A DNA stretch of 33,653 nucleotides, from contig JAPPHK010000001.1 of NCBI GenBank assembly GCA_028820795.1, positions 1 through 33,653 on the forward strand, read 5' to 3'. This stretch comes from Nitrospinota bacterium (GTDB lineage: Bacteria; UBA8248). A program made the position numbers and the translations under genes. The notes under the pieces are model-generated. The model made no database searches, was not told the DNA's origin, and saw only the letters and a list, made by a program, of their open reading frames with translations. Positions 3,619-29,418 of the stretch are shown one piece after another. The first letter of the stretch is position 1. Every line of letters starts with the position of its first letter.

Positions 3619-3662
3619 GCGAAAAACATATTCTGACGACCCTGAAGCCGGAGGACATACGA

Positions 3663-5207: not shown

Positions 5208-5642
5208 GGGGTGGTTACAGTCACAAATAATACCAAATTTTCATATTTAACAAACCAATTGTATTCCAATATCCGATATTGCTCAGAAGCGAGAATCTAG
5301 ATTAGACAAGCATATAAGAGAGAGCTAACGCCCTACATACTCCTTCGAGACGTTTTTGCATTTTGAGACTGCAAAGTTGCTGTATCTCGTTTTTTCCTTG
5401 CCAAATTTGTTTTTAGCCCTCCATTCCTGGAATAAGCGCCATCTCCTGATATTGGATAGATTGTTCCCTTTAGCTTGTGTCGCACACACGCCGACTTGTT
5501 AATCTCACGGCTCGGAGCCTGAGAACCTCCTCTCTTGTTTTGTGGCCGGGTACAACTTCTACTGCTGATGAAATAAAGCCGCCTTGCTGGTATCATGGAT
5601 TCAAAAATCCTTGAAGTGTTTGGTGAAACAGGAGGTGAGAAC

Positions 5643-7751
5643 ATGGTTCGACATGCGCTGCGGATGGTGACGCCGTTGCTGGTCCTGGTGCTCGTCTTCG
5701 TCCCGCCCGCTCAGGCGGACTACGAGGCGGGCAAGAGGGCGTGGGACGCGATGCGTCCCGCCGAGGCGCTCAAGGAGTGGCGCGCGGCGGCGAACGCGGG
5801 CGACAGGCGCGCGATGCTGGCTTTGGGGCGCCTGTACATGCGCGGCCTGGGCGCTCCGCAGGATTACGTCGAGGCGCACGTGTGGTTCAATCTGGCGGCT
5901 GCCCGGGGCGAATTGGCGGCGGCCGGGGAGCGCGACGCCCTGGCCGCGAAGATGACACCCCGGCAAATTGCGTCTGCGCAGGAGCGCGCGCGTTCGTGGC
6001 GGCCGGGCGGAAGCGAGAAAAAGCAAGCTGCGCCTTCCCCGCCCCCAAGAGCGATCCGCGAGGCGCAGGAATTGCTGGCGGCGCTCGGCTACAGGCCGGG
6101 TCCGGCGGACGGCCGTTGGGGCGCCCGCACGGCGCGGGCCTACGGGAAGTTCCTGCGCGATGCGGGCCTGCCTCGCGGCGACACGCTGACTCCGAGCGGG
6201 CTTCGAGCCATGCGGGCTGCAGCGAGAAGCAAAAGACCTGCTCCCGCCGTAAAGGCCTCTCCCCGCCGGACCGTGCGTCCGGGCGCCCTGCACCGTGCGG
6301 TGCTGGCGGGAAACATCGATGGGCTCAAGGCGGCGCTTGCGGCGGGCGCGAACGTGAACGCGCGCGATGCCCAAGGCTGGACGACGCTGATGCACGCGGT
6401 GAACAAGGGCTACGTTCTGATGGTCGGGCCGCTGCTCGAGGCGAAGGCGGACCCCGACGTCCGCGCTCCGGACGGGGCGACGGCGCTGTTCATGGCGGCT
6501 GTGCACGGACACTCGGAGGTCATCGAGTTACTGATGAAGGGGGGTGCGGACCCCTCTATCAAGGGGCCGAAGGGGAAGACGCCCGTAGACGTGGCGCGAA
6601 AGAGATACGGCACGGCGGATGCGGCGCGGGAGAAGAATGAGGGTCCCGCGCTCATTGCCCTGCTGGAGGGCAGGTCATGGGCGAAAGTCGTAGCGGAAGA
6701 TGATGCGGCGTTTGCTCGTGCGCGCTCGGTGGGGACGTCGGCGGCGTATGATGAATATCTCTCATCACAGCCGCAGGGTCGCCACAGGAATGAAGCGCTG
6801 CGGCTCAAGGCGCAGGCGCAAACCGAAGAAGAAGCGGATGATGCGGCGTTTGCGCATGCTCGCTCGGTGGGGACGTCGGCGGCGTATTCTAGGTACCTAA
6901 CTGAATTCTCGCATGGTCGTCACAGGGAGGAGGCGCTGCGGCTTAAGGCGCAGCAGGCGGAGGTCGAGAAGTTGAAACAACGTGGGTGGCCCGCAGGCGA
7001 GGTGTTCCGAGAATGTCCGGAATGTCCCGAGATGGTGGTGATACCCGCAGGCACGTTCATGATAGGTTCGCCACAGGATGAAAAAGGCAGGTATTTGGAT
7101 GAAGGGCCTCGCCATCGGGTCAAGATCGCCAGGCCCTTCGCCGTGGGCAAATACGAGGTGACGTTCGCAGAATGGGATGCATGCGTGGCGGACAGCGGCT
7201 GCGGCGGTCTCCGGCCGAGTGACAATGGTTGGGGTCGCGGCCGCCGTCCCGTGATGAATCTGAACTGGAATGACGCGAAGGCGTATGTGGAATGGTTGTC
7301 GAAGAAAACAGGCGAGCAATACCGCTTGTTGAGCGAGGCGGAGTGGGAATACGCGGTGCGCGCGGGAACGACGACACCGTTTCATTTCGGGCGGACGATT
7401 TCGACGTCCCAGGCAAACTACAACGGGAACTATACGTACGGCGGTGGGGCGACGGGCGTGTATCGAGGGAAGACTGTGCCCGTGGGTTCGTTTCCGGCGA
7501 ACGCGTTCGGTCTGCACGACGTTCACGGCAATGTCCGGGAATGGGTTGAGGATTGCTGGAACGGAAATTATCGTGGTGCGCCTTCGGATGGAAGTGCCTG
7601 GACGAGCGGCGTTTGTTCAAGCCGCGTGTTGCGCGGTGGTTCTTGGCTCAACTTTCCGAGGAACCTCCGCTCCGCGAACCGCTCCGGGAACTCGGCTGGG
7701 AGACGAAACTTCAGCAACGGTTTTCGAGTCGCCCGGACGCTTGACCCCTGA
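5643..7751 (+). CDS. Paralog 2 of the Sel1/PG-binding/ankyrin/FGE-type mosaic protein (candidate DGR variable protein), with an extra 46-aa tandem repeat
   Basis: RBS AGGAGG ahead of ATG 5643; N-terminal half nearly identical to the 854-2548 product; C-terminus RVLRGGSWLNFPRNLRSANRSGNSAGRRNFSNGFRVARTLDP. Confidence 0.9.
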   Translation: MVRHALRMVTPLLVLVLVFVPPAQADYEAGKRAWDAMRPAEALKEWRAAANAGDRRAMLALGRLYMRGLGAPQDYVEAHVWFNLAAARGELAAAGERDALAAKMTPRQIASAQERARSWRPGGSEKKQAAPSPPPRAIREAQELLAALGYRPGPADGRWGARTARAYGKFLRDAGLPRGDTLTPSGLRAMRAAARSKRPAPAVKASPRRTVRPGALHRAVLAGNIDGLKAALAAGANVNARDAQGWTTLMHAVNKGYVLMVGPLLEAKADPDVRAPDGATALFMAAVHGHSEVIELLMKGGADPSIKGPKGKTPVDVARKRYGTADAAREKNEGPALIALLEGRSWAKVVAEDDAAFARARSVGTSAAYDEYLSSQPQGRHRNEALRLKAQAQTEEEADDAAFAHARSVGTSAAYSRYLTEFSHGRHREEALRLKAQQAEVEKLKQRGWPAGEVFRECPECPEMVVIPAGTFMIGSPQDEKGRYLDEGPRHRVKIARPFAVGKYEVTFAEWDACVADSGCGGLRPSDNGWGRGRRPVMNLNWNDAKAYVEWLSKKTGEQYRLLSEAEWEYAVRAGTTTPFHFGRTISTSQANYNGNYTYGGGATGVYRGKTVPVGSFPANAFGLHDVHGNVREWVEDCWNGNYRGAPSDGSAWTSGVCSSRVLRGGSWLNFPRNLRSANRSGNSAGRRNFSNGFRVARTLDP
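6699..6960 (+). repeat. Two-copy in-frame tandem repeat, 138-nt period (46 aa)
   Basis: gatgatgcggcgtttgc...cgctcggtggggacgtcggcggcgtat starts at 6699 and again at 6837; protein DDAAFARARSVGTSAAYDEYLSSQPQGRHRNEALRLKAQ / DDAAFAHARSVGTSAAYSRYLTEFSHGRHREEALRLKAQ. Confidence 0.9.
7644..7739 (+). other. Candidate DGR variable region (VR2)
   Basis: Same position and length (96 nt) as VR1; WLNFPRNLRSANRSGNSAGRRNFSNGFRVART; AAC-rich codons (AAC, AAC, AAC) remain at variable sites. Confidence 0.55.
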
Positions 7752-7910
7752 ATCCTTGTGTCGCGGATCTAGGATTCGAACGACTTTGTCCAAGTCCTGC
7801 GTTCTAAACGTCGGTTCCCATTTCAGAAACTAGAGCCTTGAGGCCGCTTGAGACATTTGGGATCATGAAGAAAACCTGTCGTTTCTTCCAAAGGCGAGGA
7901 GTTTCCTGAC

Positions 7911-8573
7911 ATGGAATCAATGCTCCGGAAAACTCTTCGGATAGCATTGGCGGCAACGCTGTCGCTCGCTGCCTCGGCGGCGGCGGCGGATGAGGGCGCG
8001 CGCCTGTTCGCGGCCCATGCGCTGGCGTTTCGCGCCGCGGGAGTCACGGGCGAAAAACAGGCTGCGGACGTCCTGGCCGGCATGCCGGGCGCGGGGTTGG
8101 TTCGCGAGACATCTCCGGCTGTGCTTTGGAGTCCTTTTTTCTCGAACGCGATCGTGAAGTTGGGCCGCTTGCGCTCCCCCGCCCCGATGGCGCTCTATTA
8201 CGACCCGTTGCTCGACATCGCCTTGCTCACTTTTTGGGAGAAGGAGGGGGGAAGTTACCGCGTGAGCTCAGCTCGCGCGCTGCCCGGCGAGAGGCTCAAC
8301 AACCTGGACGCAAAACTATCGCTCAAGCCCCCGTGGATGTCGGCGTCGGGAGGGTTAGTCGATACCCTGGCCTCGACGACGAAAAAGCGTTTAGATGCGT
8401 TCCGATCGGCGCACCCTACGGCGTCGCAAGAGGGCGCGCGCGATGAGGCCGGCCGCTGCAACATGAGGGCCGTCCTGCCGCGCTTGGCTTTGATGTTCAT
8501 TTGCGCACTGCCCGCGCAGGCGGACTACGAGGCGGGAAAGCGCGCGGGGCCGACGATGTTCATGCCGGTGTAG
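7911..8573 (+). pseudogene. Truncated, chimeric paralog of the 2692-3618 gene, fused to a piece of the mosaic-protein signal peptide region
   Basis: Homology to paralog through MRAVLPRLA, then switches to LMFICALPAQADYEAGKRA (N-terminus of the 854/5643 proteins), then to unrelated sequence GPTMFMPV*. Confidence 0.75.
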
Positions 8574-13109: not shown

Positions 13110-13345
13110 CTTTTCCGCCCGTTTTCAGACAGTGGGGTGTTTCTATCAGTTGCGAGATTCCAGTATTCCGTTGATATCATTGAGAAAAACTAACTCTTCT
13201 CAACCTCGTTGAGGATTCGCTTTCTGTAATACGTAATCAAACCGGAATTAGGCGAATTATAACTTCTGCGCATCCTAAAGCTTCTCTGTCGGATCACCCT
13301 CCAAAATCCGGCTCATGACGACTTGATTGCGGTCGTGTTCCAGCG
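13110..13345. repeat. Dispersed intergenic repeat, copy A (hairpin 13199-13213)
   Basis: Alignable by eye to copies B and C; core acgtaatcaaaccggaattaggcgaattataacttctgcgcat; hairpin CTCAAC-ctc-GTTGAG. Confidence 0.6.
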
Positions 13346-13600: not shown

Positions 13601-14176
13601 TCACCCAAACCGAACTATGGTGTCAATGATGCTGTCAGCGTTTTGTTTGGAATACCATTCAATAAACCAACAATGGCCCGGATAATACCAAGAAGGATAA
13701 TTAGATATCCTGAAATTCAATCCATAGGAGTCGGCGAATTCATCGAGGTCCTCGATATCTCTATTTAATTTCCATGGATACGGTTGTGACACAGCGATCA
13801 ACGGTATCTTCCCACGGACCCAAATTGATGAATGGTCCCAGGCCGGTGGTTTTTCAGGCCATCCCTTTGGCGGCGACTGACCGTACGTACCTCTAGGCGA
13901 CACACCCCCGACAACATTCCACCAGTGCACACGTTTATCTTCACATAGTTCAACGTTCAGTTGGTCTGCCCAATGGCTCTGGAGTTGCCGCTGAGCTTTA
14001 TTTCGTCGAGAAACGTCGTCTTGCTTTTTCGCTTCAATTACCTTGTGTTGATCCCTGCTCATGTTCTCATCGCTCAGCACTCGCTCCTCGCTGCTATTCA
14101 AAAATGTCAGCAGGAATTTCTTGTTTTCCTGTGAAAGTGGTGATGTTGCTGAAAACCTATCTCCCTTCGTTAGCAT
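13601..14176 (-). CDS. Hypothetical protein
   Basis: 191-aa ORF with ordinary composition, Trp/Pro-rich C-terminal half; no family recognised. Confidence 0.55.
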   Translation of the reverse strand: MLTKGDRFSATSPLSQENKKFLLTFLNSSEERVLSDENMSRDQHKVIEAKKQDDVSRRNKAQRQLQSHWADQLNVELCEDKRVHWWNVVGGVSPRGTYGQSPPKGWPEKPPAWDHSSIWVRGKIPLIAVSQPYPWKLNRDIEDLDEFADSYGLNFRISNYPSWYYPGHCWFIEWYSKQNADSIIDTIVRFG

Positions 14177-14348: not shown

Positions 14349-17300
14349 CTAGATTTGCCAACGCGCCTCTTCTTCTTGATCCTCATCACGGGCGTTTTTG
14401 ATTGCGTCATTGAGTCGCTGGAGCATGCTACGCGCCCAGCGACGTACTTGCCGTCTTGGATGCTCACACAACGCGGTTATCGGGGCTTGGTAGAGCGCAT
14501 AGTAGGTTGTCACTGAGCCTGTCCAGCCAAAGGTTTCTATATTTCGAGAAATCGAGCGTAGCATGTCTTCGAGGTCACCAAACTCGTCGAGCAATCGGTT
14601 CATAAACGGATGCAGTAATACCTGCTCGGAAGCATCGGCCCGGTAGGTTGTCAAGACCGGCACGATCGCGGCTGTGAAAGCCGGCGCGGAGTCCGGATGA
14701 GCATGACACCAGGCCAACAGGGTATCTTCCGGGAGGTTAAGGATTGCAGAAGCCTTCTCCCGACTAAACAAAGATGAATCTCCCAATATATGTTCTAATC
14801 GCCATGCCCGCTTTCTGTCTGAGACGATAGCCTGCCCGATGAGTGGCCAGGAGATTTCAGGAAAGTCAGACAGCAACATTGGGGTCATAGGCTCAATGAT
14901 TCTCTGGTTGTTCCAATCCACAACCTTGACCAGCGCTTTCGATAGAGCGAAGGCAGTGGCGCGAGCATCGTCGTCCTGCCGTCCCTTACTCAGCATCCAC
15001 TTCATGATCTTCTCGAAATGGTGGTTTGCCGTTGTTCTACCCAGCAATGGCTCCCACCTAGAGAAGTTCTCCGCAGCTTTCCGCACTTGAGCCCGAAGGT
15101 TGTCAAGTCGCTCGGTTTCACCGAAGACATACATTCCCATCAGTTCCACTCCCACCACATACGCTTCCGCGCTGTGATCAAGCATCGCATCAAACAAAGG
15201 TGTAACTTCGTGGATCGGAACCTTGGCGAGCTCTCCGCCGAACATCCATTGCATCAATCGCAAGGGAGGCAACAGACCCGCTTCCAGAGCACTAATGACC
15301 AATCCAATATCATATGATGTAATGCCCAATCGCCAGCAAAGCATGGGAAGTGCCGGGGCTAGATCCAGCGACTGAGCTGCCCTTTGCTTTATGCTATCTA
15401 CGACGTCTAGGTGATTCTCAGAGATGCCGACAATAAATCCTGTTATTAGATCAAAGTTGCGCTCGTTCTCCGGTGTTTCTGAAACTGCCAGGATAATTCG
15501 CTCCAGCCAGTCCAAGGGAGAGTCAGTAGCTCTGGCAATGGATTGTCCGAAAAGAGGGGCCATCCGCTGCTGGCCCCGGCTGATCTGAGGCAAGACTTTT
15601 TCCAGAATTTCCGGCTGCTCGATAATCTCGACTGCCAGCGCGCTAACAGCCTCGGCTTTACGCTTATCGCGTGTCTCGAAGTCCAGTTTTTCTCCGCATG
15701 GAAAGTCCCACGGCATCTCGGTAACGAGGAAGCGCACACGTGATTCCAGGTCTTTCGGTTGCAGATCAGCCATCAGCTTTCTGATCCGAGCAATCATTTC
15801 GTGATCCGTTTCGGAAACGTCGTATTCGAGAAAGTGGCCGAGGCTCTCGAGTGCTTCTACCCACTCACCGGTCTCATTACTAACCAGATCGATTACTGTC
15901 TCCACGGTTTCTATGAAGCCATGAGCAACCAACGACCGCAGCTGATGACCAAGTTCTGTACGCGCAACCATGCCTGACTCATCGTCTCGCCTGGCGAATT
16001 CGGCAAGGTGTGTCACACAGCTCCTGATATAGTCTGTTGCCTCTTCATTTGTTGCTGGACGCCAATCATCCAGAGCCGGGCTTGATCCGTGAGTTTCCGC
16101 ACCCACGAACCGGCGGAAATGATCTGTCTTTGAACCAGCGACCAGAGCTTGGACGACGACCGAGCGTTGGCTCGGATCATCGGTGATGACTACTTCGTCC
16201 AGAAAAGAAAGCCGTGAATGGCCATCGGCCGCAGTGTTGCCAGCGAGCATGGGAAAAAGAGCTTTGAACTTGGATGTAGCATCGTTGCCGATACGGACCT
16301 GATTTTCAGCGACTGCAAGGAGTAGCAAAAGGTAGGCGCCATCCTCAAATGTGTCGGAACGGAAGGCGATCTTCTCCAGTGCCCGGACAAGGTTCCAGCG
16401 TATATCGCCTTTGATGCCCGAAAGGTCTTCGACATCGGCTAGAGAGCGCTTGATTTGCCGCACGACAATCTCGGGATTGATTTCAGCAAGTGCCGACAGC
16501 ACCTCCGCGTGACCCGGACGGAAAATTCCCTCAAGTTTATCGAAGGGCCCACCTAGACGGCAGATGTGGGCCACCACTTCCTGAGAGACATCGGTCGTGT
16601 TGAGCAAGCTGAGTTGTCTGGCCGCCGAGATTTTGAGGGTGGAACTGGTGTCACCAGTCAACACTCTATCCCAATTGTCCTGACTCCACTCCCGCCACTG
16701 GCTCTCGGCCAGTCTCATGGCGATTGAGTGGGGCTGGAGAGTGACGAGCCTTCCTCGCCTTTGGGCGACCCCTCGATCAACAAGCCTTTTCATAGCGGCA
16801 TGTAGGTCGGCTGCCGTTAGGCCACGTCCTCGCGCCGCAATCTCCTCTAGTTGGCCACCAGCCGAATGCTCTATAGCGGTCAGGCCGAATACAGCTAGTA
16901 GCTTCGCCGATTTGAGCAACAATTCAGGCTCTTGGTTGCTGCGCCCTTGAACAAAGACTTTGACCATATGGTCGTCTGTTGCATGGGCAACGGGTATGGA
17001 GTCAGCCCACGCCCGACCAACGCGGATAGCGATCCCTGGAAAACCCTTGGAGAAATGTATGAGCCGGCGCTGGTCCTCGGACGGCAGGTCTGGCAAGACT
17101 TGATTGATAATGGCTTCGATGACGGAGAGCGGCGCTTCGCCCACCCTGAACGTCGTTTTATCCGGCGTTCCGTCAGGGAGTTCGTTGTCGATGGTAATCA
17201 ACGAGAGGCGGCTTTCACTTCGCGAAATCATGTTGACGAGTGTCTCATGAGACTCAGGAGGACAGCGATCGACTATCACTACAACTCGCGCTCCCATATC

Positions 17301-18380
17301 CACCCAGCATTGCACAACGCTTTTGATGGATACAGGATCAACCTGGGATTCGTCGGCATAGAGAACGATGTCTTTGAGAAAATCGCCTCCCTCCTCGACA
17401 CGATCAAGAGCTTCAAGAACCAGTCTTGATTTCCCGACACCGGATAGTCCGACTACGCGTGCTATGCCACGCGGTTTAGTTACATGTGCGCACAGTTGTT
17501 CTTGCAGCGGGGGAAGCCGCTTATCCTCCACCCAGGGAGAGCGCTCGTGTTCTGCGCGGCTCGCCCAGTGAAACCAGGAGCGAAAAGGGCCGACGGTTCC
17601 TGGTTGGGTTTGCTCCTTGGTCCATATTGCTACAGCAGGGTGGCTGTTCGTCCAGGCAGCGATTTGATCGGCATCGAGAAACCGGACTTGCTCGTCGTCG
17701 ATAGTCATACCGGCGCCGCGGAGTGCCTGCTGGATACGTGTTTCCCGCTCTTCGATTTGCTTTTGAACATAAGGATGAGCACAAAGCATGATGTAGTGGC
17801 CACCGGACTCGACGGCCGAACGGACCATATCTTTGACTCTCCCCGCTGTTGTCAAGACGTCGCGCCCCGCCTTGGCAGGCGAGATTTTTCCGGCCTTTAA
17901 CTGGAATTGACAGCGCCGGGAAGGGAGGTATGGAGTACGGTCGGGGCCATCTTTCCATGTAATCCGTCCGTCCTCGCCTCCATCGGGAATGGTAATCCCG
18001 CTGGCCACATGAATACCGTCGGTGGGAAGGTTGTTGGTCTGAGCTTCCGCGTATAGCAAGCTTCGCAAAAGCATAGCGAGATCCTGCCCGGAGAGGGCGG
18101 CAACATGTTCACCAGTCACCTCAAATGGATGAATTCCAGTTGTGGTGTGCATGGGAGTAGATTTCTTTCCTTGCAGGTTGGCGGCCATCGCCGGATTGGC
18201 CTCCAAAAGTCGCAGCAGGTTGATGACAGAAGCGGAGGGTTTCACGGTACCCGCTTCGTACTTCGTGAAAGCGCGCGGACCACCACCCAACAGTTCTCCG
18301 GCTTCGACCTGTGAGAGGCCGAGATGCTCTCGAATAGACCGGATTTCCTCAGGAGTGATTTCTTTTTTATTTTTTGCCAT
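14349..18380 (-). CDS. Giant STAND-type defence protein: MqsA-like HTH + PD-(D/E)xK-like nuclease domain + P-loop NTPase + helical repeats
   Basis: Start at MAKNKKEITPEEIR (18380); HTH IREHLGLSQVEAGELLGGGPRAFTKYEAGTVKPS; IPDGGEDGRI...CQFQLKAGK (D...QxK); P-loop VVGLSGVGKSRLVLEA; VVVIVD Walker B-like; long helical C-terminus. Confidence 0.8.
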   Translation of the reverse strand: MAKNKKEITPEEIRSIREHLGLSQVEAGELLGGGPRAFTKYEAGTVKPSASVINLLRLLEANPAMAANLQGKKSTPMHTTTGIHPFEVTGEHVAALSGQDLAMLLRSLLYAEAQTNNLPTDGIHVASGITIPDGGEDGRITWKDGPDRTPYLPSRRCQFQLKAGKISPAKAGRDVLTTAGRVKDMVRSAVESGGHYIMLCAHPYVQKQIEERETRIQQALRGAGMTIDDEQVRFLDADQIAAWTNSHPAVAIWTKEQTQPGTVGPFRSWFHWASRAEHERSPWVEDKRLPPLQEQLCAHVTKPRGIARVVGLSGVGKSRLVLEALDRVEEGGDFLKDIVLYADESQVDPVSIKSVVQCWVDMGARVVVIVDRCPPESHETLVNMISRSESRLSLITIDNELPDGTPDKTTFRVGEAPLSVIEAIINQVLPDLPSEDQRRLIHFSKGFPGIAIRVGRAWADSIPVAHATDDHMVKVFVQGRSNQEPELLLKSAKLLAVFGLTAIEHSAGGQLEEIAARGRGLTAADLHAAMKRLVDRGVAQRRGRLVTLQPHSIAMRLAESQWREWSQDNWDRVLTGDTSSTLKISAARQLSLLNTTDVSQEVVAHICRLGGPFDKLEGIFRPGHAEVLSALAEINPEIVVRQIKRSLADVEDLSGIKGDIRWNLVRALEKIAFRSDTFEDGAYLLLLLAVAENQVRIGNDATSKFKALFPMLAGNTAADGHSRLSFLDEVVITDDPSQRSVVVQALVAGSKTDHFRRFVGAETHGSSPALDDWRPATNEEATDYIRSCVTHLAEFARRDDESGMVARTELGHQLRSLVAHGFIETVETVIDLVSNETGEWVEALESLGHFLEYDVSETDHEMIARIRKLMADLQPKDLESRVRFLVTEMPWDFPCGEKLDFETRDKRKAEAVSALAVEIIEQPEILEKVLPQISRGQQRMAPLFGQSIARATDSPLDWLERIILAVSETPENERNFDLITGFIVGISENHLDVVDSIKQRAAQSLDLAPALPMLCWRLGITSYDIGLVISALEAGLLPPLRLMQWMFGGELAKVPIHEVTPLFDAMLDHSAEAYVVGVELMGMYVFGETERLDNLRAQVRKAAENFSRWEPLLGRTTANHHFEKIMKWMLSKGRQDDDARATAFALSKALVKVVDWNNQRIIEPMTPMLLSDFPEISWPLIGQAIVSDRKRAWRLEHILGDSSLFSREKASAILNLPEDTLLAWCHAHPDSAPAFTAAIVPVLTTYRADASEQVLLHPFMNRLLDEFGDLEDMLRSISRNIETFGWTGSVTTYYALYQAPITALCEHPRRQVRRWARSMLQRLNDAIKNARDEDQEEEARWQI

Positions 18381-18393
18381 ATTAGACCTCATT

Positions 18394-18412
18394 AACAATA
18401 AAATATATTGTT
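18394..18412. promoter_or_regulatory. Perfect inverted repeat, candidate operator for the HTH-STAND gene
   Basis: AACAATA-aaata-TATTGTT, 14 nt upstream of the start codon at 18380. Confidence 0.5.
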
Positions 18413-18475
18413 GACCATTATGGTGTATAAATATGAATTTCACAACATTTTGTCCAGAAAACGATCTTGCCACCC

Positions 18476-18650
18476 GTTTAGAGAGAGCGGGGGATTTTCA
18501 ACGGCGGTGGAATCTTTGTAGCTTGTTGAAAGTATTGCAGGTATTTGTTTTTACGAATCTCGTTTTAGGATTCGTTTGTAAAAAGATGCAATCAAACCGG
18601 AAGCGGGTGGATTACAACTTCTGCGCAGTTTGGCAGGTTCCTGTTGGTAA
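18476..18650. repeat. Dispersed intergenic repeat, copy B (hairpin 18553-18575), next to an IS110 relic
   Basis: Core atgcaatcaaaccggaagcgggtggattacaacttctgcgcag; hairpin ACGAATC-n9-GATTCGT. Confidence 0.65.
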
Positions 18651-18729
18651 CTGATGGGATGGACGCGTGCCCCGGCAACATCACGCTAGGGCAAGATAAC
18701 ATAGTTGCCGCTTTTAAGGAGGGTTGTCC

Positions 18730-18882
18730 ATGGAACAGGTTCACATTATCGGTATCGATCTGGCGAAACAGAGTTTTCAACTCTACGGCGCTCGCGAGGA
18801 CAAAGAGGGTAAAACGCCGTGGGATTACGCAAAAGCGAACACCGCGCTCAAGGAGGACGAAACCCTACTGGCAGCTGAATGA
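18730..18882 (+). pseudogene. IS110-family transposase N-terminal remnant
   Basis: MEQVHIIGIDLAKQSFQLYGARED matches the IS110 DEDD-domain start (GIDxAK..F); ORF ends after 50 codons. Confidence 0.75.
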
Positions 18883-18971: not shown

Positions 18972-19613
18972 TTATTCGTAAATTGGAAGCCCCTCTCGAT
19001 CTTCATCCAGCCGCTCCGGCCCTTTCGTGATTTCCTGACACTTGCCTTTTGCGAATTCCCAGATTTGATGAAACCTTTCTGAGCGGTCCGAGCTGAAACG
19101 CGCCTCATGTCTGATAGGGCTGCTGGTTTCGAAAACTGTGAAATTGAAAAATTGATCACGTGCCAAGGAGTTGAGCTCCATCTCGACGGCTGAGCTTTCA
19201 TTGAGATTCAGTAGTTTTATATCTTTCGCGGGGCCCCCTTTGTTTTCGACTCTACACCTGCACCGACCACTCCACCATTCATCGGGATTCATGATTCTGA
19301 TAGTGAGATGGGGGATGGAATCCTGGTAATCCGCTGTTACTTGCTCCTGTAGCAATTCAGTCTGTTTACCGAGTTGTGCCCGTGTGAGCTCTAGCTCCTT
19401 GCGCTGAAGGGAAAGCTCGCTGGACTGCAGGAGGTAGCCGTATATCAACCAACCGAAAGCTAACGGAGTGAAAAAACCTGCGAGGAAGTCCCCCAACTCG
19501 TTCAGGTCGCCTGTCGTTAAGAGGCGCCAGGCATCGCTTCCACGCAAAAAGAAAATAATGGCGATATAGAGAACGCTAATGCCGCTTATCACCCAGATTC
19601 CAATATGCTTCAT
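18972..19613 (-). CDS. Membrane protein with two predicted TM helices and a coiled coil, unknown function
   Basis: MKHIGIWVISGISVLYIAIIFFLRGS...LGDFLAGFFTPLAFGWLIYGYLLQSSELSLQRKELELTRAQLGKQTELLQEQV. Confidence 0.7.
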   Translation of the reverse strand: MKHIGIWVISGISVLYIAIIFFLRGSDAWRLLTTGDLNELGDFLAGFFTPLAFGWLIYGYLLQSSELSLQRKELELTRAQLGKQTELLQEQVTADYQDSIPHLTIRIMNPDEWWSGRCRCRVENKGGPAKDIKLLNLNESSAVEMELNSLARDQFFNFTVFETSSPIRHEARFSSDRSERFHQIWEFAKGKCQEITKGPERLDEDREGLPIYE

Positions 19614-19756: not shown

Positions 19757-21142
19757 TCATTGCGTCTGTCTTATGCGCTCCTGTAACTCCCGGCCCTTGT
19801 TTGTCAGCCGATACTTCTGTTTACTGCTGCGGGGCTTGTCGGGAATAGTCATCTCGATGAGACCTGCGGCAAGAGCTGGTTGCACGTATTCTTTGGTCAG
19901 ATTCGACCGATCCTTGAGCCCCAGACTCTGAAGGATTTCCGCTCGTGTCCGCTCGCCGTCCAGTGAACGGATGAGGTTTTTGACTTGTAGGGTACTTGCA
20001 GGGGACTTGTCGGGTACTTGCGAGGCCGCATGTTCGACCTGACGCGCGAATGTGGTAGTCACCCAATTCTCGGAGACGTCGATTGTCGGCTCGGTCACCC
20101 CGTAGTCGCGACATAATTCGCGAATGCGTCGTATGCCGCTACCGACCTGCTCGACCAGCCCCATGCGGTAGAACATGCCGAACAGGAGTGGGTTCCGGGG
20201 GACGCTCTTCGTGCCCAGGTCCTCTTCACGCATCCCGGCCGGCAATCCGCCCGGTGTCACGATCTCCAGACGGTCGCGGAAGACGTGAACCTGTACGTTC
20301 GCGGTAGAACGATAGTCCCGATGAACGATGGCGTTGACAAGAGCTTCCCGCAAGGCGCCTTCGGGAAGCTCAAGACGCTCGTCCCTTCCTAGGGCATGGG
20401 GTATCAAAGCCGTGTTCAGCCTGGATTGCAGGTACGCCATACAATCCTCAAAAATAGAAAAAAGATCGGCGTCGAATTCCCTGCGGTCGAGGATGTGGGT
20501 TTTTGTTACCCCTCGGAAGACTGCACATATCACTCTGGCCTGTAAGGTGTAGCGAGTGATGTCGTCGGCAAGCAGCCATGCCCCGGCGTTTGTCATCTCT
20601 CCGACTTTCAGCAAATGCAGGTTCTCCAGTGCCGAAACTGGCTCGAGGTCTTCGGGGATCCTCGCTCGTTGAGAGAACTTTGCCCACTTCTCGTTTGTCA
20701 AATCGTTCTCGATGTGGAAATCACCACACTGCATCTCATCGAATCTGATGAGACCTTCTTTGAAGAAGAACTCGCGTATCTCCTCCCGCGACATTTGCTG
20801 GGAATTGGCGCCTTCACGCATGAAGAACCTGCCACCGAAAGAATAGGGTTTGCCATGTTGCTCCGGGACCCTGACACAGAGCACACTGTCGACTGACGTC
20901 ACGTCGATGGCAATCGGTGGATCCGCTGAGCGGGCGGTGGCTTGCACCCTGGACTTCAGGCCGTTGTGGTCGGCGACTCCCACAATCTCCCCACTATCCT
21001 CTACACCGATCAGAATCACACCACCGGTGGCATTTGCAAAAGCGCAGATTTCGCGTCCCAAGCTGGATGTCTCGGAGCGTTTAAACTCGGTCGTAAAACC
21101 CTCGCCAAGCGCGATCAGTTCAGAGAGGTCTTTGGAATTCAT
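19757..21142 (-). CDS. AlbA_2 (Schlafen AlbA_2-type) domain protein with ATP-binding region and C-terminal winged helix (COG2865-like)
   Basis: EGFTTEFKRSETSSLGREICAFANATGGVILIGVEDSGEIVGV; ALREALVNAIVHRDYRSTANVQVHVFRDRLEIVTPGGLP; start set at MNSKDLSELIALGEG (21142). Confidence 0.85.
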   Translation of the reverse strand: MNSKDLSELIALGEGFTTEFKRSETSSLGREICAFANATGGVILIGVEDSGEIVGVADHNGLKSRVQATARSADPPIAIDVTSVDSVLCVRVPEQHGKPYSFGGRFFMREGANSQQMSREEIREFFFKEGLIRFDEMQCGDFHIENDLTNEKWAKFSQRARIPEDLEPVSALENLHLLKVGEMTNAGAWLLADDITRYTLQARVICAVFRGVTKTHILDRREFDADLFSIFEDCMAYLQSRLNTALIPHALGRDERLELPEGALREALVNAIVHRDYRSTANVQVHVFRDRLEIVTPGGLPAGMREEDLGTKSVPRNPLLFGMFYRMGLVEQVGSGIRRIRELCRDYGVTEPTIDVSENWVTTTFARQVEHAASQVPDKSPASTLQVKNLIRSLDGERTRAEILQSLGLKDRSNLTKEYVQPALAAGLIEMTIPDKPRSSKQKYRLTNKGRELQERIRQTQ

Positions 21143-21872
21143 GGTTGGCTCTGCATCCTGTTGGTTCCCGGCACGTGATGTGGGCAGGATCGGTATACTT
21201 ATCAAAGGTCTTGATGTCTGAGGCGCAAGTGCTTGCCCACTCTAGTCTCTCGTGCAGGTAATCGGCGGTCGTCTCTTATGCCAGCTTATCTTCATCCATA
21301 CTCATCCTGCAATCCACCATCGATGAGAGGCGGGAATAGAAGGTCACGGGCAGTCACAAGTTTCTCACTCTCTAGCAGCATTATTTCTTAATGTTCGAAC
21401 AACTGTCTGGTTAATTCAGCCAGAGAAGTACAGAGTACTGCTGGCGGTGTAATTATGACCTAGCATTTTGGCTATAGCTTCAGTACATTCGTGCCGACTG
21501 TATAGCGCTTGGTTTAGTAATTGTGGAAAATCCGGCAGGCAAGCAAGACTTTCATTTGGGAGGAACAGTTACGCCATATTCAGATATTTTCTAAAACCGA
21601 AACCGCGACAATTGATCACCCATCCCCTAGTATCGTGTATAGCCCGTGTTTTTGCCTATAGATGCCTGGATGACTTGAAGGGTGTCTTGCTGATCGACTG
21701 GCATGACTGAAAGAGGTTCGAGTGATGTGTATTGCATTGTTATTTCGTGCTTTTTTTAGTGACGCCCACAAGCCGCAAGACAGGTCGGGATCATACGGTA
21801 CTGGCCCGAGTATGCTTGTCTTGGCTCGCCGGTTTTGGGCCATATAAAGCTGCGCACTGCTCGGAGATTGTC

Positions 21873-24800
21873 ATGACCCTTCGCTTTTCAAATGGTGGCC
21901 CCGAATTCCCCGGTGAACTGATCGATTCACTTCTGGCCGGTGAAGTGGTTTTTCTGTGTGGCACAGGGGTAAGCGCCCCGCAAATGCCGGATTTCGAAAA
22001 ATTGGTCGAACGCACATACAAGCTCTTGGCGATCGAGAGAACAGACTCGGAGCAAAACGCGTTTGACTTAGGTCGTTTCGAGGAGGTCTTGGGATCGCTC
22101 AGTCGGCGGTTGGCGAACCCCCACGCCGTGACACGTACGGTCTCGGAACTACTCGCCGTACCTGATCATCCTCGTTTGGATCAACATCGCACAATCCTTC
22201 GCTTGTCGCGCGATCACGACAACCGGATCACGGTAGTCACAACGAATTTCGATACGCTGCTTGAGCGGGCAGCGGTCGAGGTCATGCCAAATGAGCCGCC
22301 ACGGGATTTCAGCTTCGCTGGTCAAGCGCTGCCGGCTCCGGGCAGTTCGTCTTTTTCAGGCATTATTCACATTCATGGGCGTCTCGCAGATCACGAAATA
22401 GGTCTTGAGCATACTCCGCTGGTGCTTACGAGCGCCGACTATGGCGATGCCTATATGCGCTCTGGATGGGCGTCGCGTTTTCTCTTTGATCTGGCGCGCT
22501 GCAAAGCGATCTTGCTCGTAGGATACAGCGCGAACGATGCGCCGGTTCGCTATTTCCTCAACGTGCTTGAAGCGGACCGCGCACGTTTTTCCGATCTAAA
22601 AACGGTTTATGCGTTCGATTCATACGAGCATAACCAGGAGGAAGCAACTCGCTCATGGGGCACTCTCGCCGTGACGCTGTTGCCCTACTGCAGGGTAAAT
22701 TCTGAGACAGGAGAACACGACCACTCGCCCCTTTGGCGCGACTTGGCGGCACTGGCGGAGATCGCTGAACGTCCTAAACGCTCCCGACGAGAACGGGCCC
22801 GCAGAATCTTGGAACGTCCAGCCGCAGATGCGAATGCTGATTCTCGGCGAGAACTGCGTTGGCTTTTCAGTGGACGCCGGGATCTTGGGTCGGTTGCGCT
22901 GAATGCAATTGTCGATCCCGAATGGTTTAAGGTCTTTGAGGACGAGAGGCTATGGTCCAGAGATGAGGTTTGGGTGATTTCCTCTTGGGTCGCGAAAGAC
23001 TGGCAAAATAGAGATCGGCTTGAATGTGCACTTGAGTGGCAAGGACGTCTAGGCCGTCCTTTCACTGAGAAAATCGAGCAGCGATTGCGCCAGACGGAAG
23101 GCTTGGACGAAACTTGGATTCGTGTGTGGCGCTTGTTTTGCCTTGCCGAACCCATGCAGCGCGATGAATTGGCTTACTATGCGAGCAAGAAACGGCTTGC
23201 TAGTGGGCTAGTCCTAGATAGCGATTTACAAAAAGCCGTGAGTCTAATCGCACCAAGGCTGAATTTAAGCCGAAGTCATCGCGAGCTTCGTGCAGAGAGT
23301 ACTAGTAAACCGATCCAAAGACTTAGCGACATTGTTTGGCCACGCATGACAATCTCTAATTTGCACGGCGCGGGGGAGTTGGTTGATGTTTTGTGTTCGA
23401 TGCCGGACCGCGCCAAGGCGATTATCGACCTCGCAACGGCTGAACTGCGCTCGGCTCTTAGTCTTGAGGCCGAACTCGAAATGATAGGCGAAGTATTTGA
23501 CGAAAACGATTTCACTGTGCCGTCAATTGAACGCCATGATCAGAATCTGTACCGCGAAGGTGTGAATTTTCTGGTTCGGGCGCTTACAGAATCCTTGTCC
23601 GATGCCGCGATTTCGGACCGCGTTCACACTAGAAGGGTTGTTACGGGATGGAAGAGTCTTCCCGGTCGGATCGGTCTGCGTCTTTGTCTGCACGCGATGC
23701 GAAATTCGATACTCTTCGATGCGGACGAGGCGATGTCGATCTTGTTGTCGGTCTCTGAACAGGATTTCTGGTCGATCCGACGAGAGATTGCGCTTCTGCT
23801 GAAAGAACGGGCGGGGACAGCATCCACAGAGCTCGTGAACAAGGTTGAAGAACGGATTCTTAAAAGTGGCGATGCTTATTATGACAGCTACCTCATAGAA
23901 CCGGGCGAAACTGATTGGAGAGCGCATGCACGCGATTCTGCGGTATGGCTTCGCCTCAAAATGTTGCAAGACGCCGGCATTCTATCCAACGTCGGGGCCA
24001 TTGAACTTTCAGCCATAACCAAACGGCACGACCATCTGAATCGTTCTGTTGAGGATCGGGATTTCTTCGGAGGATACATCTCCGGTGTCCGCAGTATTGT
24101 TGGTGATCCTGCGCCGATTGCAGAGGCGCTGGAAGAAGATCGTCTTCAGATCGCGCATGAGCTTACCGGCAGTCCTGACCTAGATTTACAGCAAGGCTGG
24201 TCCGCATTTTGCCGATCCGATCCGCAAGGAGCGTTCGATTCACTTTCTAAAGGAGAACTAACGCCAGAGAACGGAGTGTTGTGGAACCAGTTTCTCGGTG
24301 GACTGGCATTCGGCGAAGAGGAGAGCAAGACGGTTCGCGAGGATCTGCCAATCCAGGCGCTGGAACACCTGCATGGAGTGGATGCCGATACCCTGCGACC
24401 AATGGTTTCCGGTCTGTGCGACTTGTTCTACTTTGCACCGCGACAGCGCGTTCGGGATGTCGAAGGTTGGCTCGTAAAACTTTGGGAAACGATTTCGAAT
24501 CAACCCGAAGAATCACTTGATCTCACGGCAAACCTATACGAGAGGGCGATCAATTCCCCGGCAGGGAAGATTTCGCGAACGCTATTGCTGCAGATTGAAG
24601 AGCGCAAGGAAAAAGGGGACGGGCCTACAGACACCCAACTTAGGCTCATCAAGAGTATTTGCGATTTTGGAGGTGTGGCGGGTCAACTAGGGCGCGCCAT
24701 ACTAGTCCGTAGCATAGCATTCCTGCTCAGCGTAGATCGGCAATACGTCGTTGAGGTATTTAGCCCGCGCATCAACGCTACAACAGCTGAAGGAGTAGCA

Positions 24801-25481
24801 CTGCGTACCGTGATGCTGAGGTATTGTCCGATCACGCCTGAAGTCACCCAAGAGTTCCGGCAAGCGATTATCACAGGTGTGGTTGAAAGCGAATCGACCG
24901 ATCATCATGCTGCCACAATTGCTTCGAACATTCTCCGCCCCGCGTTAGCTGACCTTAGGGCAGACAATACGTTTCGGTGGGGTTTGACGGCGACGGACGT
25001 TGCCAAAATTCTGCGAAAAGTTCCGCAAGCCATTCGAAGCGGCACGCTGGAGGTGCTTGCGACATGGCTTCGAAATGACCAGAGTAGTGCAGAAACGGCT
25101 TGGAGACGGCTTGGAGTCTCGTTCTTTGAGAAAATTTGGCCGAAGGAACGTGAATTCCAGGATGTGTCGCTTACCCCTCATTTGATCAAGCTTGCGGTTG
25201 GTTCAGGCAGCGAATTCCCCGCGGCTTTGGAGCGTCTTCGGCCTTATATCTCTCCATATGATCGTGGGTACGGGAGTCTTCATGCTATCACCTCATCAGA
25301 AGCACCGGAGAAATTTCCCCGCGAAACACTAGATTTGGTTTGGTTGGTCTGTGGCCCCAAAAGCAAAGGGAGCTTTCATGATGTTCCAGAGATTATTGAT
25401 AGACTGATAAAGGCGGCTCCAGACATTGAAACAGACCGTCGATTACAGGGGCTTGAGCAACGTGCGGAGAGATACGATTGA
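21873..25481 (+). CDS. SIR2-domain giant protein with helical-repeat C-terminus (Dsr-like defence-associated sirtuin)
   Basis: VVFLCGTGVSAPQMPDFEKL (NAD-binding GxGxS), TTNFDTLLE, GIIHIHGRLAD (catalytic His), ILLVGYSANDAPVRYF; start set at MTLRFSNGGPEF. Confidence 0.85.
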   Translation: MTLRFSNGGPEFPGELIDSLLAGEVVFLCGTGVSAPQMPDFEKLVERTYKLLAIERTDSEQNAFDLGRFEEVLGSLSRRLANPHAVTRTVSELLAVPDHPRLDQHRTILRLSRDHDNRITVVTTNFDTLLERAAVEVMPNEPPRDFSFAGQALPAPGSSSFSGIIHIHGRLADHEIGLEHTPLVLTSADYGDAYMRSGWASRFLFDLARCKAILLVGYSANDAPVRYFLNVLEADRARFSDLKTVYAFDSYEHNQEEATRSWGTLAVTLLPYCRVNSETGEHDHSPLWRDLAALAEIAERPKRSRRERARRILERPAADANADSRRELRWLFSGRRDLGSVALNAIVDPEWFKVFEDERLWSRDEVWVISSWVAKDWQNRDRLECALEWQGRLGRPFTEKIEQRLRQTEGLDETWIRVWRLFCLAEPMQRDELAYYASKKRLASGLVLDSDLQKAVSLIAPRLNLSRSHRELRAESTSKPIQRLSDIVWPRMTISNLHGAGELVDVLCSMPDRAKAIIDLATAELRSALSLEAELEMIGEVFDENDFTVPSIERHDQNLYREGVNFLVRALTESLSDAAISDRVHTRRVVTGWKSLPGRIGLRLCLHAMRNSILFDADEAMSILLSVSEQDFWSIRREIALLLKERAGTASTELVNKVEERILKSGDAYYDSYLIEPGETDWRAHARDSAVWLRLKMLQDAGILSNVGAIELSAITKRHDHLNRSVEDRDFFGGYISGVRSIVGDPAPIAEALEEDRLQIAHELTGSPDLDLQQGWSAFCRSDPQGAFDSLSKGELTPENGVLWNQFLGGLAFGEEESKTVREDLPIQALEHLHGVDADTLRPMVSGLCDLFYFAPRQRVRDVEGWLVKLWETISNQPEESLDLTANLYERAINSPAGKISRTLLLQIEERKEKGDGPTDTQLRLIKSICDFGGVAGQLGRAILVRSIAFLLSVDRQYVVEVFSPRINATTAEGVALRTVMLRYCPITPEVTQEFRQAIITGVVESESTDHHAATIASNILRPALADLRADNTFRWGLTATDVAKILRKVPQAIRSGTLEVLATWLRNDQSSAETAWRRLGVSFFEKIWPKEREFQDVSLTPHLIKLAVGSGSEFPAALERLRPYISPYDRGYGSLHAITSSEAPEKFPRETLDLVWLVCGPKSKGSFHDVPEIIDRLIKAAPDIETDRRLQGLEQRAERYD

Positions 25482-25554: not shown

Positions 25555-25765
25555 CGCCTGTTTTTAGACAGTGGGGAATTTCTAACGGCTACGAAATCCT
25601 CGTAGTTTATTGAAAGTATTGTCGGTATTTCTTTTGAATTATGTGCAGTGTGTGCTTACTGCAGTCTGTAATCTAAATGAAAGCGGACAAAATACAACTT
25701 TTGCGTATTTAGGAGTGTCTCTATCTCACCATCCTCGAAAATTCAGTCTGAAGCAACTTGTTAAT
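25555..25765. repeat. Dispersed intergenic repeat, copy C (hairpin 25644-25663)
   Basis: Core ctgtaatctaaatgaaagcggacaaaatacaacttttgcgtat; hairpin TGCAGT-n8-ACTGCA. Confidence 0.6.
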
Positions 25766-26007: not shown

Positions 26008-29000
26008 TCAACTACGTCGATCCATAATATCCGGACCAATTAGTCGAACATGGACCTTATCCTTGTCCGAATCTAGTTCAGCGTAGGCCACTGAATTCGG
26101 TAGAACGTCAATCACCTCGTCTAATCGACCAACTGCCCGAAAATCAGCTCCAGCCAACAACGTTGTCCCACTGGCGACGTCTGATTCAACGCGAACCAAG
26201 GCGCGCTTCGGTAAAGGGTGATCGTACATTTCAGAGATATCGAAGCTCTCAGACGATCTTCGCCAAGTCTGTTCCTTATCACCAAGTACTTGGTCTCTGA
26301 ATCGCCGCCAAAGAGATGCCGTTGATCTACTCGGCCAATCCTGTCGCAGCGACAAATCAGTTACGATATCGCTGGCAAGCCATTGACGCATTTCGTTGCT
26401 ATCGATGAATACTGGTTCGAGTTCATTCACTACCTTTTGTGCTGCTTTTCGTGATGTAAGGCCCCCGCGAACCAATAGCGTCATACGATAATCCGGCAAG
26501 CCAGTGTCAACACATGCTGCCGCAGCACCGGCTATGATTCCCATTTCAGGTTCCCAACCACGTGATTGACGCTGGATCCGAATCGCTTCGAGCGCCCAGA
26601 CAAGCCGATAAATAAACGCATCCTCTATCAATCCAACATGTTCCGAGCCAATATCGGATAGCGACGCGCCTCCAATCCATTGACGTAGCACATCAATCCA
26701 GTTATCGGCGAGCGTATTCGGAGCGAACGGCCGAATGTCCAGCAATAGCGCCGCCAACCGGACGAGAGCTAAGTGTAAATCTTCCTCGTCCGCCTGCAGA
26801 GCTGCAAGGTCCGCTTGTTCCAGATTTTCTCCAAGAGCATCAGCCATCTCGTCTACTTGAAGACCCGTCTCTAAGCCAACGCCCATCGCAAAATACCCAC
26901 GCCGCTGCATGGGAGTCGTTTTCTTCCAAATGAGTCGCGCGCGGGCTGTTAGAATACACATTTGCCTTTCTCTTTCATCAGGCGTCCGGCGCACAAGTTG
27001 CCTAGCCCACAATGACCCCGACAAAGCAGCTTCGAGTAGTTCAGGTAAATTATCTGCATCCGCCTCCAGCGCTTCGACCAAACCAAAAACAATAGAATCG
27101 AGTTTCGCCACCAGAGCATTGAGCGATTCCCCCTCGACATCATCCGCATCTTCGAGCCATGCCTCGTGTACATTAGCCAGATATTCATATCCCCCTTTTT
27201 CTTCAACACCATTTGCCGTTAAACGCCGGATTACTTCATGGATGACTGTTATCAATCCGCTCTTTAGAGACCGTTCCTGCACTTCATTCACAAGGCGCCG
27301 CCACTGAGTCCGACGGTAGTGATGTCTGTCCTTTATCACATGTAGAATCAGCCCCTCCGTATCAACAAACGCGCGTCCCGCACGCCCAGCTACATTGGCT
27401 AGTTCCCCGCTCGATATTCGCTGACCTTCGCGAACTAGGTAAGGGACAAGCAATACTGCCGCATTTAGATTTAGGCCTTGAGCAAGCGTCGGAGACGTCG
27501 CAGTAATTTTGATAGTGCCCGAGGCGAGCAGTCGCTCAACTTCACGCAAAAAAGGGCTTGGCAAGTTGCCATGATGAATCGCAATTCCGTAGCGCAAACA
27601 TTTTACAGCCGGATGATCGCTTCCAAGCCATTCAATACCTATAGCCACCGCTGCCTCGACAGCATTTGGTTCTTCCAATAATGACGGCAGATAGCCTTTT
27701 TCGACTAAGTCAAAAGCCTGATTGCCATAGCCTTCTACCCAATTCGCCTGGGTTATGTAAATCAATGTGCGCTTTCCATCCTCGGCGAAGCGCCATGCGC
27801 TCATCAAAGCCACATCTCTGATATCTCTTGGGTAGGCTATTCTGTCTCTGCCACGCGGAGGCAGTTTCCGGATGAACTGGTTTACGAATGGGCCATTGTG
27901 CTCGAGGTCGTAGTTTAGCCGCCCAGTTTCGGAGCGCCATTCGAGTGTTCCGTAGCGATGACGCGTCGGGCGCCATTCAGACCTGATTGGTTGTCCCTCA
28001 TCGTCAGAGCGAATCCATGCGGTCATGTCGTTTAGTTGTTCGCCATCCGGCAATATCGCAGACAGGCATACTATCCTGCGTTCCCCCGCATCGGCCCGGC
28101 GTAGTAGGCGCTGTACAAGAACCTCGTAGTGAATTTCGCGCTCTCCAGGACCGATGAGGTGGCCTTCATCCAAAACGATCAGGCCGACATCGGCGATGAT
28201 GGTTGGATCATTACGCAGTGCGAAATCCAGTTTCTCGGGCGTAGACACGACAATATGATGACTGCGAAGCGCATCTTCATCTCCTACCGACAAACCGCTC
28301 TTGCCATAGAGCGCGGACACACTCGCTCCGAGCGGTGCGAACCGCGAACGAAAAGATCGTTCAGACTGTGCCGACAAGGCGCGCAGAGGTGTCACAACCA
28401 GCACCCGTTTCCCCATCGCCAGAGCGTTGAGCGTCGCAAGTTCGGCAATTCGGGTCTTACCCGCGCTAGTCGGCAATGAGACCACAAGATCGTCGGTGGG
28501 ATCTGCCGCTCTTTTTGCCGCTTCTATCTGTGAAGGCCAGAGTTCAATCTCCGAAATATCACGAGTGAACAAGGAAGCGATAAAAATGGTTCGGAGGTCT
28601 GAATATACTTCCAAAGCACCTTCTGGTGGGCTTGTCGGAAGCACCACATGAAGCGATTGATTCCAGAGATCATCCACTAACCCAAGGGTCAAGCGAATTA
28701 TCCACCAGAGTGATGACATACCGGTCTCCGCAGATAACTTGAGAGCATTCGAGAGTATTTCCCTGGCAACTGTTACAAAATCCGATTCTCCCGTACGCAG
28801 GGCGAACTCATAGTTCGCCAACGCCCTGCAAACGGAACTGATCAGGATCAGTGCGAGTTCAGCATCCCGGTCATCATCTGGTCCTCGCAAACGTTCCGAG
28901 ATCGCTTCGTCTTGATGCAGATTATCGCGAAGCCAGTCTTTTGCTGTGTCTCGCACCCCGCCGAGATCTCTCAACATAAGTTTGACAAGACAGGTTTCGG

Positions 29001-29418
29001 CGGTGTTCAAGTTTTGCTCTGCGGAATCCACTGGTCGGAAAAGGGCGTAGGAAATTGCCGCATAACTACCGAGATGATACGAAGCTGCTGCCATAACTCG
29101 GTGAAATCCGCGCTGCGGATCGCTCGGGTCACCATTTCTCACAAGGTTTTCAAAAACCCTGCCTGAAGTTGCAAATGCTTTTCGAGCTAAGGCATGTCCG
29201 TTTTCAAGAGAATTCAGCGTCAGCCCGGCGTCCAGTATTGCAAATCCATATTCCGCGAGATCGGCATCCAATGTAAGACGAAAATCAGGCGCGTCCTTCG
29301 GGAGCGTGCCTTCTTGCCTTATGATCGACCAGGCTTCACTCGTATCAACAACACGTCCCCGCGCCCCGCTATCCAATACGTTCTGCAAGAAATTGACCAG
29401 TTCCTCAATTGTCTCCAA
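26008..29418 (-). CDS. hamB: Hachiman HamB-like SF2 (Ski2-like) helicase
   Basis: Motif I SLPTSAGKTRIAE, Ia VTPLRALSAQ, II VLDEGH, III-like LSAILPDG, VI-like GRAGRA; directly downstream of and overlapping a DUF1837-like gene. Confidence 0.8.
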   Translation of the reverse strand: METIEELVNFLQNVLDSGARGRVVDTSEAWSIIRQEGTLPKDAPDFRLTLDADLAEYGFAILDAGLTLNSLENGHALARKAFATSGRVFENLVRNGDPSDPQRGFHRVMAAASYHLGSYAAISYALFRPVDSAEQNLNTAETCLVKLMLRDLGGVRDTAKDWLRDNLHQDEAISERLRGPDDDRDAELALILISSVCRALANYEFALRTGESDFVTVAREILSNALKLSAETGMSSLWWIIRLTLGLVDDLWNQSLHVVLPTSPPEGALEVYSDLRTIFIASLFTRDISEIELWPSQIEAAKRAADPTDDLVVSLPTSAGKTRIAELATLNALAMGKRVLVVTPLRALSAQSERSFRSRFAPLGASVSALYGKSGLSVGDEDALRSHHIVVSTPEKLDFALRNDPTIIADVGLIVLDEGHLIGPGEREIHYEVLVQRLLRRADAGERRIVCLSAILPDGEQLNDMTAWIRSDDEGQPIRSEWRPTRHRYGTLEWRSETGRLNYDLEHNGPFVNQFIRKLPPRGRDRIAYPRDIRDVALMSAWRFAEDGKRTLIYITQANWVEGYGNQAFDLVEKGYLPSLLEEPNAVEAAVAIGIEWLGSDHPAVKCLRYGIAIHHGNLPSPFLREVERLLASGTIKITATSPTLAQGLNLNAAVLLVPYLVREGQRISSGELANVAGRAGRAFVDTEGLILHVIKDRHHYRRTQWRRLVNEVQERSLKSGLITVIHEVIRRLTANGVEEKGGYEYLANVHEAWLEDADDVEGESLNALVAKLDSIVFGLVEALEADADNLPELLEAALSGSLWARQLVRRTPDERERQMCILTARARLIWKKTTPMQRRGYFAMGVGLETGLQVDEMADALGENLEQADLAALQADEEDLHLALVRLAALLLDIRPFAPNTLADNWIDVLRQWIGGASLSDIGSEHVGLIEDAFIYRLVWALEAIRIQRQSRGWEPEMGIIAGAAAACVDTGLPDYRMTLLVRGGLTSRKAAQKVVNELEPVFIDSNEMRQWLASDIVTDLSLRQDWPSRSTASLWRRFRDQVLGDKEQTWRRSSESFDISEMYDHPLPKRALVRVESDVASGTTLLAGADFRAVGRLDEVIDVLPNSVAYAELDSDKDKVHVRLIGPDIMDRRS

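Follow-up and report, generated by a model that had tools for sequence, protein, structure and literature searches.

The Nitrospinota bacterium contig JAPPHK010000001.1 carries a gene which, in our view, likely encodes a STAND nuclease of the PD-Lambda-4 type that includes its own repressor, derived from the MqsA antitoxin, and that is predicted from sequence and structural modeling to act as an anti-phage effector. The stretch analyzed (the window) is the whole 33.6-kb contig, one of 322 in a 79%-complete metagenome-assembled genome (MAG). To our knowledge, little is understood of how bacteria keep NLR-like immune nucleases at low levels and still ready for use, and the regulators of such nucleases known to us are mostly separate proteins. 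If our reading is correct, sensor, effector, and repressor would reside on one chain, served by an 11-bp operator, and DNA-binding heads ahead of PD-Lambda-4_A proteins would offer a simple route to further cases. The nuclease-STAND core is of an ordinary, catalogued kind (PD-Lambda-4_A); the new part is the probable built-in self-repressor with its identifiable site.

The open reading frame (ORF) runs on the minus strand from an ATG at 18378 to 18380 to a stop codon at 14349 to 14351; an in-frame GTG at 18473, which lies upstream of the promoter and operator, would add 31 residues if used. Amino acids (aa) 86 to 1339 of the protein matched the PADLOC model PD-Lambda-4_A (E = 2.7e-96, 321.5 bits) from model position 4 to 1280, covering 1,277 of 1,283 positions. 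Since the match to this catalogued family starts at aa 86, the N-terminal helix-turn-helix (HTH) domain is the sole part that PD-Lambda-4_A lacks. The protein had been likened to the Avs type in a first-pass annotation of this DNA; however, no Avs model was among its PADLOC matches at E ≤ 0.1, and it is instead a full-length PD-Lambda-4_A homologue. That annotation had also allowed that the fusion might already be catalogued, which proved true in spirit for the core and not for the HTH fusion. AlphaFold2 models of aa 1 to 285, computed from a 55-sequence alignment of the window protein and proteins of related loci, and of aa 286 to 1343 reached predicted local distance difference test (pLDDT) scores of 86 and 89, respectively. 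They place an MqsA-like HTH first, followed by a disordered linker, a PD-(D/E)xK-like domain, a STAND-type nucleoside triphosphatase (NTPase), a winged helix, and a HEAT-like solenoid.

The identity of the HTH as an MqsA-type XRE domain, already suggested by the first-pass annotation, was supported by matches to Pfam MqsA_antitoxin (1.5e-14), to NCBIfam TIGR03830 (7.9e-19, exceeding the cut-off), and, by sequence, to MqsA in PDB entry 3fmy (1.7e-10). The AlphaFold2 model shows a five-helix HTH whose top Foldseek match was again 3fmy, with a target template modeling (TM) score of 0.89 and a root mean square deviation of 1.3; a fold search against viral proteins returned HTHs only. In the alignment to 3fmy, R36 and K40 of the helix GGGPRAFTKYE replace the N and R of E. 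coli MqsA. The N-terminal zinc-binding half of MqsA is the part that binds MqsR. This half is not present in the window protein, which begins four residues before the HTH and matches MqsA_antitoxin only from model position 66, leaving positions 1 to 65 unmatched. Calling the domain antitoxin-like was thus correct for the DNA-binding half and overstated as to toxin binding. No recognizable toxin gene adjoins, as the neighboring ORFs at 13604 to 14176 and 18975 to 19613 had no family match in Pfam, PADLOC, or NCBIfam. A genome-wide search for MqsR gave no match, but its controls gave no signal either. In each of five genomes, the fused gene was the only MqsA_antitoxin match above the cut-off.

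The strongest evidence for self-regulation, an idea that the first-pass annotation had raised without this site, is a putative operator at the gene's own promoter. The palindrome ACCATWATGGT was found 42 to 49 bp before the start codon in all five close fused genes (those of the window and of loci L023 to L025 and L038) and was absent from the upstream regions of all 62 HTH-less homologues (Fisher 1e-7, with related rows counted as independent). Otherwise, the upstream regions of the close fused genes are only ∼50% alike between three lineages. When the 200-bp upstream regions were dinucleotide-shuffled 20,000 times each, the palindrome arose at a frequency of 0 to 3e-4. It occurs exactly once per genome in four related genomes of 5.1 to 5.7 Mb, at the fused-gene promoter, where ∼0.6 to 0.8 copies would be expected by chance anywhere in the genome. 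The window's own genome has two exact copies, one of them at the operator; the second falls within coding sequence, where an M23-peptidase-type gene beside secA begins, and was taken as chance. Because the motif was spotted by inspection, these statistics are partly after the fact, which does not apply to the whole-genome count or to the stand-alone MqsA operons described below. An inverted repeat, AACAATA-N5-TATTGTT (18394 to 18412, 7-bp arms), was also considered as operator and rejected, being equaled in 14% of shuffles and not common to the relatives. Phylogenetic footprinting showed a linkage between the HTH and the putative operator, a site that is near-unique in these genomes, and we propose ACCATAATGGT as the binding sequence for aa 1 to 85 of the fused protein.

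Matching sites were found in stand-alone MqsA-family operons that had no part in motif discovery: TTACCATAATGGTAA in the mutually related L122, L123, and L125, and ACACCACTATGGTGT plus GCACCATAATGGTGT in L117. Methylocystis has ACACCATTAAGGTGT. E. coli MqsA binds AACCT-N3-AGGTT (PMC4894380), which has the same ACC-N5-GGT spacing as ACCATWATGGT. A second ACC-N5-GGT lies 29 bp downstream in L023 and L025, and tandem palindromes are also present at the mqsRA operons of E. coli and Magnetospirillum. The fused protein thus resembles the MqsA antitoxin (PF15731, TIGR03830) in the sequence and predicted fold of its HTH and in operator geometry, and its exact palindrome is shared with some stand-alone MqsA-family operons; in contrast to that antitoxin, it lacks the zinc/toxin-binding half and a recognizable toxin gene beside it. 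The palindrome overlaps a promoter-like sequence, for which L023 to L025 have TTGACA, a spacing of 16 to 18 bp, and CATAAT at the same place. Since the −10 element lies inside the palindrome, HTH binding there would block RNA polymerase. Judging from these sequences, we consider it very probable that the repressor head occupies the promoter of its own gene and limits the amount of protein.

Scanning 84,980 genomes with a profile yielded 71 loci; a single-sequence search of the genome contigs gave no match. The HTH is present in three uncultured Gammaproteobacteria chromosomes (L023 to L025, 60 to 61% identity) and in a MAG (L038, 47%); a survey covering 369 genomes from the same class brought the fused members to six by adding L110, whose HTH is diverged and whose contig is short. 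The homologues that start at the nuclease without an HTH number more than 60, all with an identity of 35% or lower, and identity of the window protein to most homologues is 22 to 31%. Its recurrence in independent genomes shows that the fusion did not arise by chance or from a chimeric MAG assembly. In a tree built from the nuclease-NTPase part, with the HTH excluded, the fused proteins formed one group (Shimodaira-Hasegawa-like approximate likelihood ratio test, 93), with a value of 100 for the five close members plus L026; L110 is a long branch, so that its placement is less sure. The simplest history would be one old fusion, passed between phyla, with one loss.

A different DNA-binding head was found at L018:3668-7774, on a plasmid of Xanthomonas campestris CN13, where a PD-Lambda-4_A homologue carries an in-frame N-terminal LexA winged helix, and the palindrome CGCCGTAAAGTACGGCG lies at −45. 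Both this gene and that of the window place a DNA-binding domain ahead of PD-Lambda-4_A, although that of L018 is not an MqsA HTH. Since L018 lies on another branch of the tree, its LexA head is, by sequence, a separate and independent gain. N-terminal "extensions" in tblastn matches from Thalassobaculum (L007) and Rhizobium proved to be out-of-gene reading, not HTHs. On a Rhizobium leguminosarum plasmid (L022:813-4931, minus strand), a 1,372-aa protein encoded immediately upstream of a PD-Lambda-4_A gene combines an XRE HTH (Control_protein-like) with a weak trace of PD-Lambda-4_A and lacks an evident P-loop; it may be a degenerate partner.

The nuclease-like domain had been proposed from its D...QxK spacing, and this agreed with conservation and with the model. 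D133, D137, Q160, and K162 (DGGED...QLK in the window protein) are present in 67/67 homologues; as the search pattern required DGG[EQ]D, only Q160 and K162 are unbiased in that set, and plasmid homologues retrieved without any pattern have DGGxD...QxK too. With pLDDT mostly above 90, AlphaFold2 predicted an α-β-β-β-α-β-α-β order (helix 98 to 115; strands ∼122 to 124, 138 to 141, and 156 to 162; helix 184 to 191; strand 195 to 200; helix 206 to 222; strand 232 to 235). This predicted order fits the PD-(D/E)xK fold, with D137 and Q160-x-K162 at the expected places. The HTH dominated the Foldseek search, in which the few non-HTH matches included the nucleases Cap4, EcoO109I, and Cdn1, each at E ∼0.3, which is consistent with such a nuclease and is not proof of it. 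No nuclease emerged when a profile of the N-terminal alignment was searched against PDB.

The STAND-type NTPase and the long helical, sensor-like C terminus recognized in the first-pass annotation likewise held up. The NTPase has a Walker A motif (GLSGVGKS, aa 311 to 318), a Walker-B-like VIVDRC (aa 368 to 373), and a GxP-like GFP (aa 446 to 448); these motifs are conserved among homologues, with G311, G316, and K317 of the P-loop invariant. The homologues gave weak matches to AAA_16 (27/33), NB-ARC (13/33), and nSTAND3, none above a curated cut-off, and the NTPase profile weakly matched plant NRC NLRs, a bacterial NB-ARC protein, and the STAND protein PH0952. Sequence and model together indicate the features of a STAND NTPase, namely, P-loop, Walker B, GxP-like motif, winged helix, and repeat C terminus. 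The predicted solenoid matched importins, SF3B1, and CAND1 in Foldseek at low TM-scores and resembles HEAT proteins generally.

We propose that a single-gene effector of the PD-Lambda-4_A family acquired the DNA-binding half of an MqsA-type protein once, long ago, as a cis-acting autorepressor. In the uninfected cell, the N-terminal HTHs would pair in the manner of MqsA and bind ACCATWATGGT over the −10 box, and this repression would hold a potentially self-harmful nuclease low. A phage product recognized by the solenoid would then cause the NTPase to oligomerize, which would bring the N-terminal nucleases together and lead to DNA cutting. Dimer binding and repression by the HTH are suggested by analogy to MqsA. 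Avs-type STAND proteins combine sensor recognition, NTP-dependent oligomerization, and nuclease activation, and it is by analogy to them that solenoid sensing, oligomerization, nuclease activation, and DNA cutting are proposed here; repression might also change on activation. A more far-reaching version, which we regard as possible though doubtful, is a feed-forward switch: the resting protein would repress its own gene, and phage-triggered oligomerization of the NTPase would pull the HTHs off the operator, so that the nuclease becomes active and its expression rises, the family having gained DNA-binding heads (MqsA HTH, LexA winged helix) more than once for that purpose.

Several observations weigh against the autorepressed-nuclease reading. 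The second ACC-N5-GGT site is degenerate in the window, and L038 lacks a good −35 element. L026 (Caldilineaceae) lies in the fused clade without an HTH, its gene being truncated and on a short contig, and in L110 the recognition helix has diverged and the upstream region lacks ACC-N5-GGT. The nuclease fold rests on the motif and strand order: the prediction for aa 1 to 285 has the PD-(D/E)xK-like order that the first-pass annotation would lead one to expect, without a strong nuclease fold match. Finally, PD-Lambda-4_B was found in none of the five genomes (including the window's own, 79% complete), although the model did match in the E. coli control. PD-Lambda-4 function is therefore not simply transferable, and we file the protein as an A-family homologue rather than a two-gene system, one that acts alone or with another partner.

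Three other explanations were weighed. It appears unlikely that the HTH binds the promoter of a gene with some role besides phage defense; the missing PD-Lambda-4_B and the purely inferred function of the fused clade leave room for this, whereas the full-length PD-Lambda-4_A match and the defense-gene neighbors in the window (Hachiman, Dsr1-like SIR2, and a type I restriction subunit) and in L023 argue against it. Slightly less probable still is that the HTH, joined to the nuclease domain by a flexible linker, is a targeting module that brings the nuclease to specific phage or chromosomal DNA and not a regulator, as the sole exact site in four genomes is the gene's own promoter, over the −10 box, which is not expected of targeting. 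Least probable is a toxin-antitoxin pair on one chain, in which a remnant antitoxin neutralizes the fused nuclease in cis until infection releases it: the HTH does derive from the MqsA antitoxin family, and toxin-antitoxin modules, MqsRAC included, do serve in defense (PMC9519451), but only the DNA-binding half was kept, the MqsR-binding zinc half being absent, more than 60 homologues exist without any HTH, and the conserved operator points to DNA as the ligand.

Among known systems, PD-Lambda-4 (Vassallo et al. 2022, PMC9519451) shares the nuclease motif, P-loop NTPase, and helical C terminus with the window protein, which differs from it in the extra N-terminal MqsA HTH and in the missing PD-Lambda-4_B gene. 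Avs/AVAST STAND nucleases likewise combine an N-terminal nuclease, a STAND NTPase, and a long C-terminal repeat sensor, whereas the window protein matches no Avs model, has a HEAT-like C terminus in the model, and carries the extra HTH. In PD-lambda-2, a HigA-type HTH is fused to a peptidase, and the genes of a HigB-like toxin and of one more protein accompany the fusion (PMC9519451); an antitoxin-type XRE HTH is thus fused to a defense protein in both cases, but the HTH family and the effector differ. We found no report of an HTH-fused, self-repressing PD-Lambda-4_A member in the open-access literature, and no study of the PD-Lambda-4 mechanism in the open-access literature naming the system.

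Table 1. Features of the fused gene and its upstream region (window coordinates)
Feature	Position	Strand	Basis
Whole gene: HTH, nuclease-like domain, STAND-type NTPase, helical solenoid	14349..18380	-	Open frame, 1343 aa
MqsA-type XRE HTH, aa 5-69; helix GGGPRAFTKYE	18174..18368	-	Pfam, NCBIfam, AlphaFold2 versus 3fmy
Flexible linker, aa 71-82	18135..18170	-	AlphaFold2 pLDDT < 50; length varies among fused relatives
PD-(D/E)xK-like nuclease domain, ~aa 86-260; D133, D137, Q160, K162	17601..18125	-	Invariant residues, AlphaFold2, weak fold matches
STAND-type NTPase core, ~aa 288-480	16941..17519	-	Conservation; weak AAA_16/NB-ARC matches
Winged-helix region, ~aa 481-570	16671..16940	-	AlphaFold2 helices, then beta hairpin
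HEAT-like alpha-solenoid, ~aa 571-1343, putative sensor	14352..16670	-	AlphaFold2 pLDDT 89
Palindrome ACCATWATGGT, proposed operator of the fused HTH	18414..18424	.	Footprinting among fused genes
Promoter-like TTGTGA-N17-CATAAT	18417..18445	-	-10 CATAAT within palindrome

The window locus is a defense island, in agreement with the anti-phage setting first supposed for it: the PD-Lambda-4_A-like gene shares the contig with Hachiman HamA/HamB, a Dsr1-like SIR2 protein, an AlbA_2/Fic-like_C protein, and a truncated type I HsdR. In L023, a type III restriction-modification-like methylase and Res lie downstream of the fused gene. The Hachiman pair HamB/HamA (26008 to 30199, minus strand) gave full-length PADLOC matches. 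The SIR2 protein (21732 to 25481, plus strand) matched Dsr1 strongly at aa 51 to 349 and hardly elsewhere, scoring 371 bits against a cut-off of 1,400, and may be a new SIR2 effector/sensor combination. Within the island there is also an uncharacterized protein with AlbA_2, HATPase_c_4, and Fic-like_C domains (19757 to 21205, minus strand).

Between the defense modules, we observed a repeat of ∼150 bp, all copies on the same strand and 63 to 75% alike (13116 to 13272, 18470 to 18640, 25555 to 25707, and 30690 to 30828). Related pieces at 548 to 634 and 18705 to 18791 extend into the beginning of an IS110-type transposase (MEQVHIIGIDLAKQSFQLYGA), and the repeats are possibly decayed IS110 left ends marking how the island was assembled. 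Elsewhere in the window, a tandem duplication of ∼5 kb (848 to 8573, plus strand), with copies 75 to 88% alike, encodes a single protein with Sel1, PG_binding, ankyrin, and FGE-sulfatase domains.

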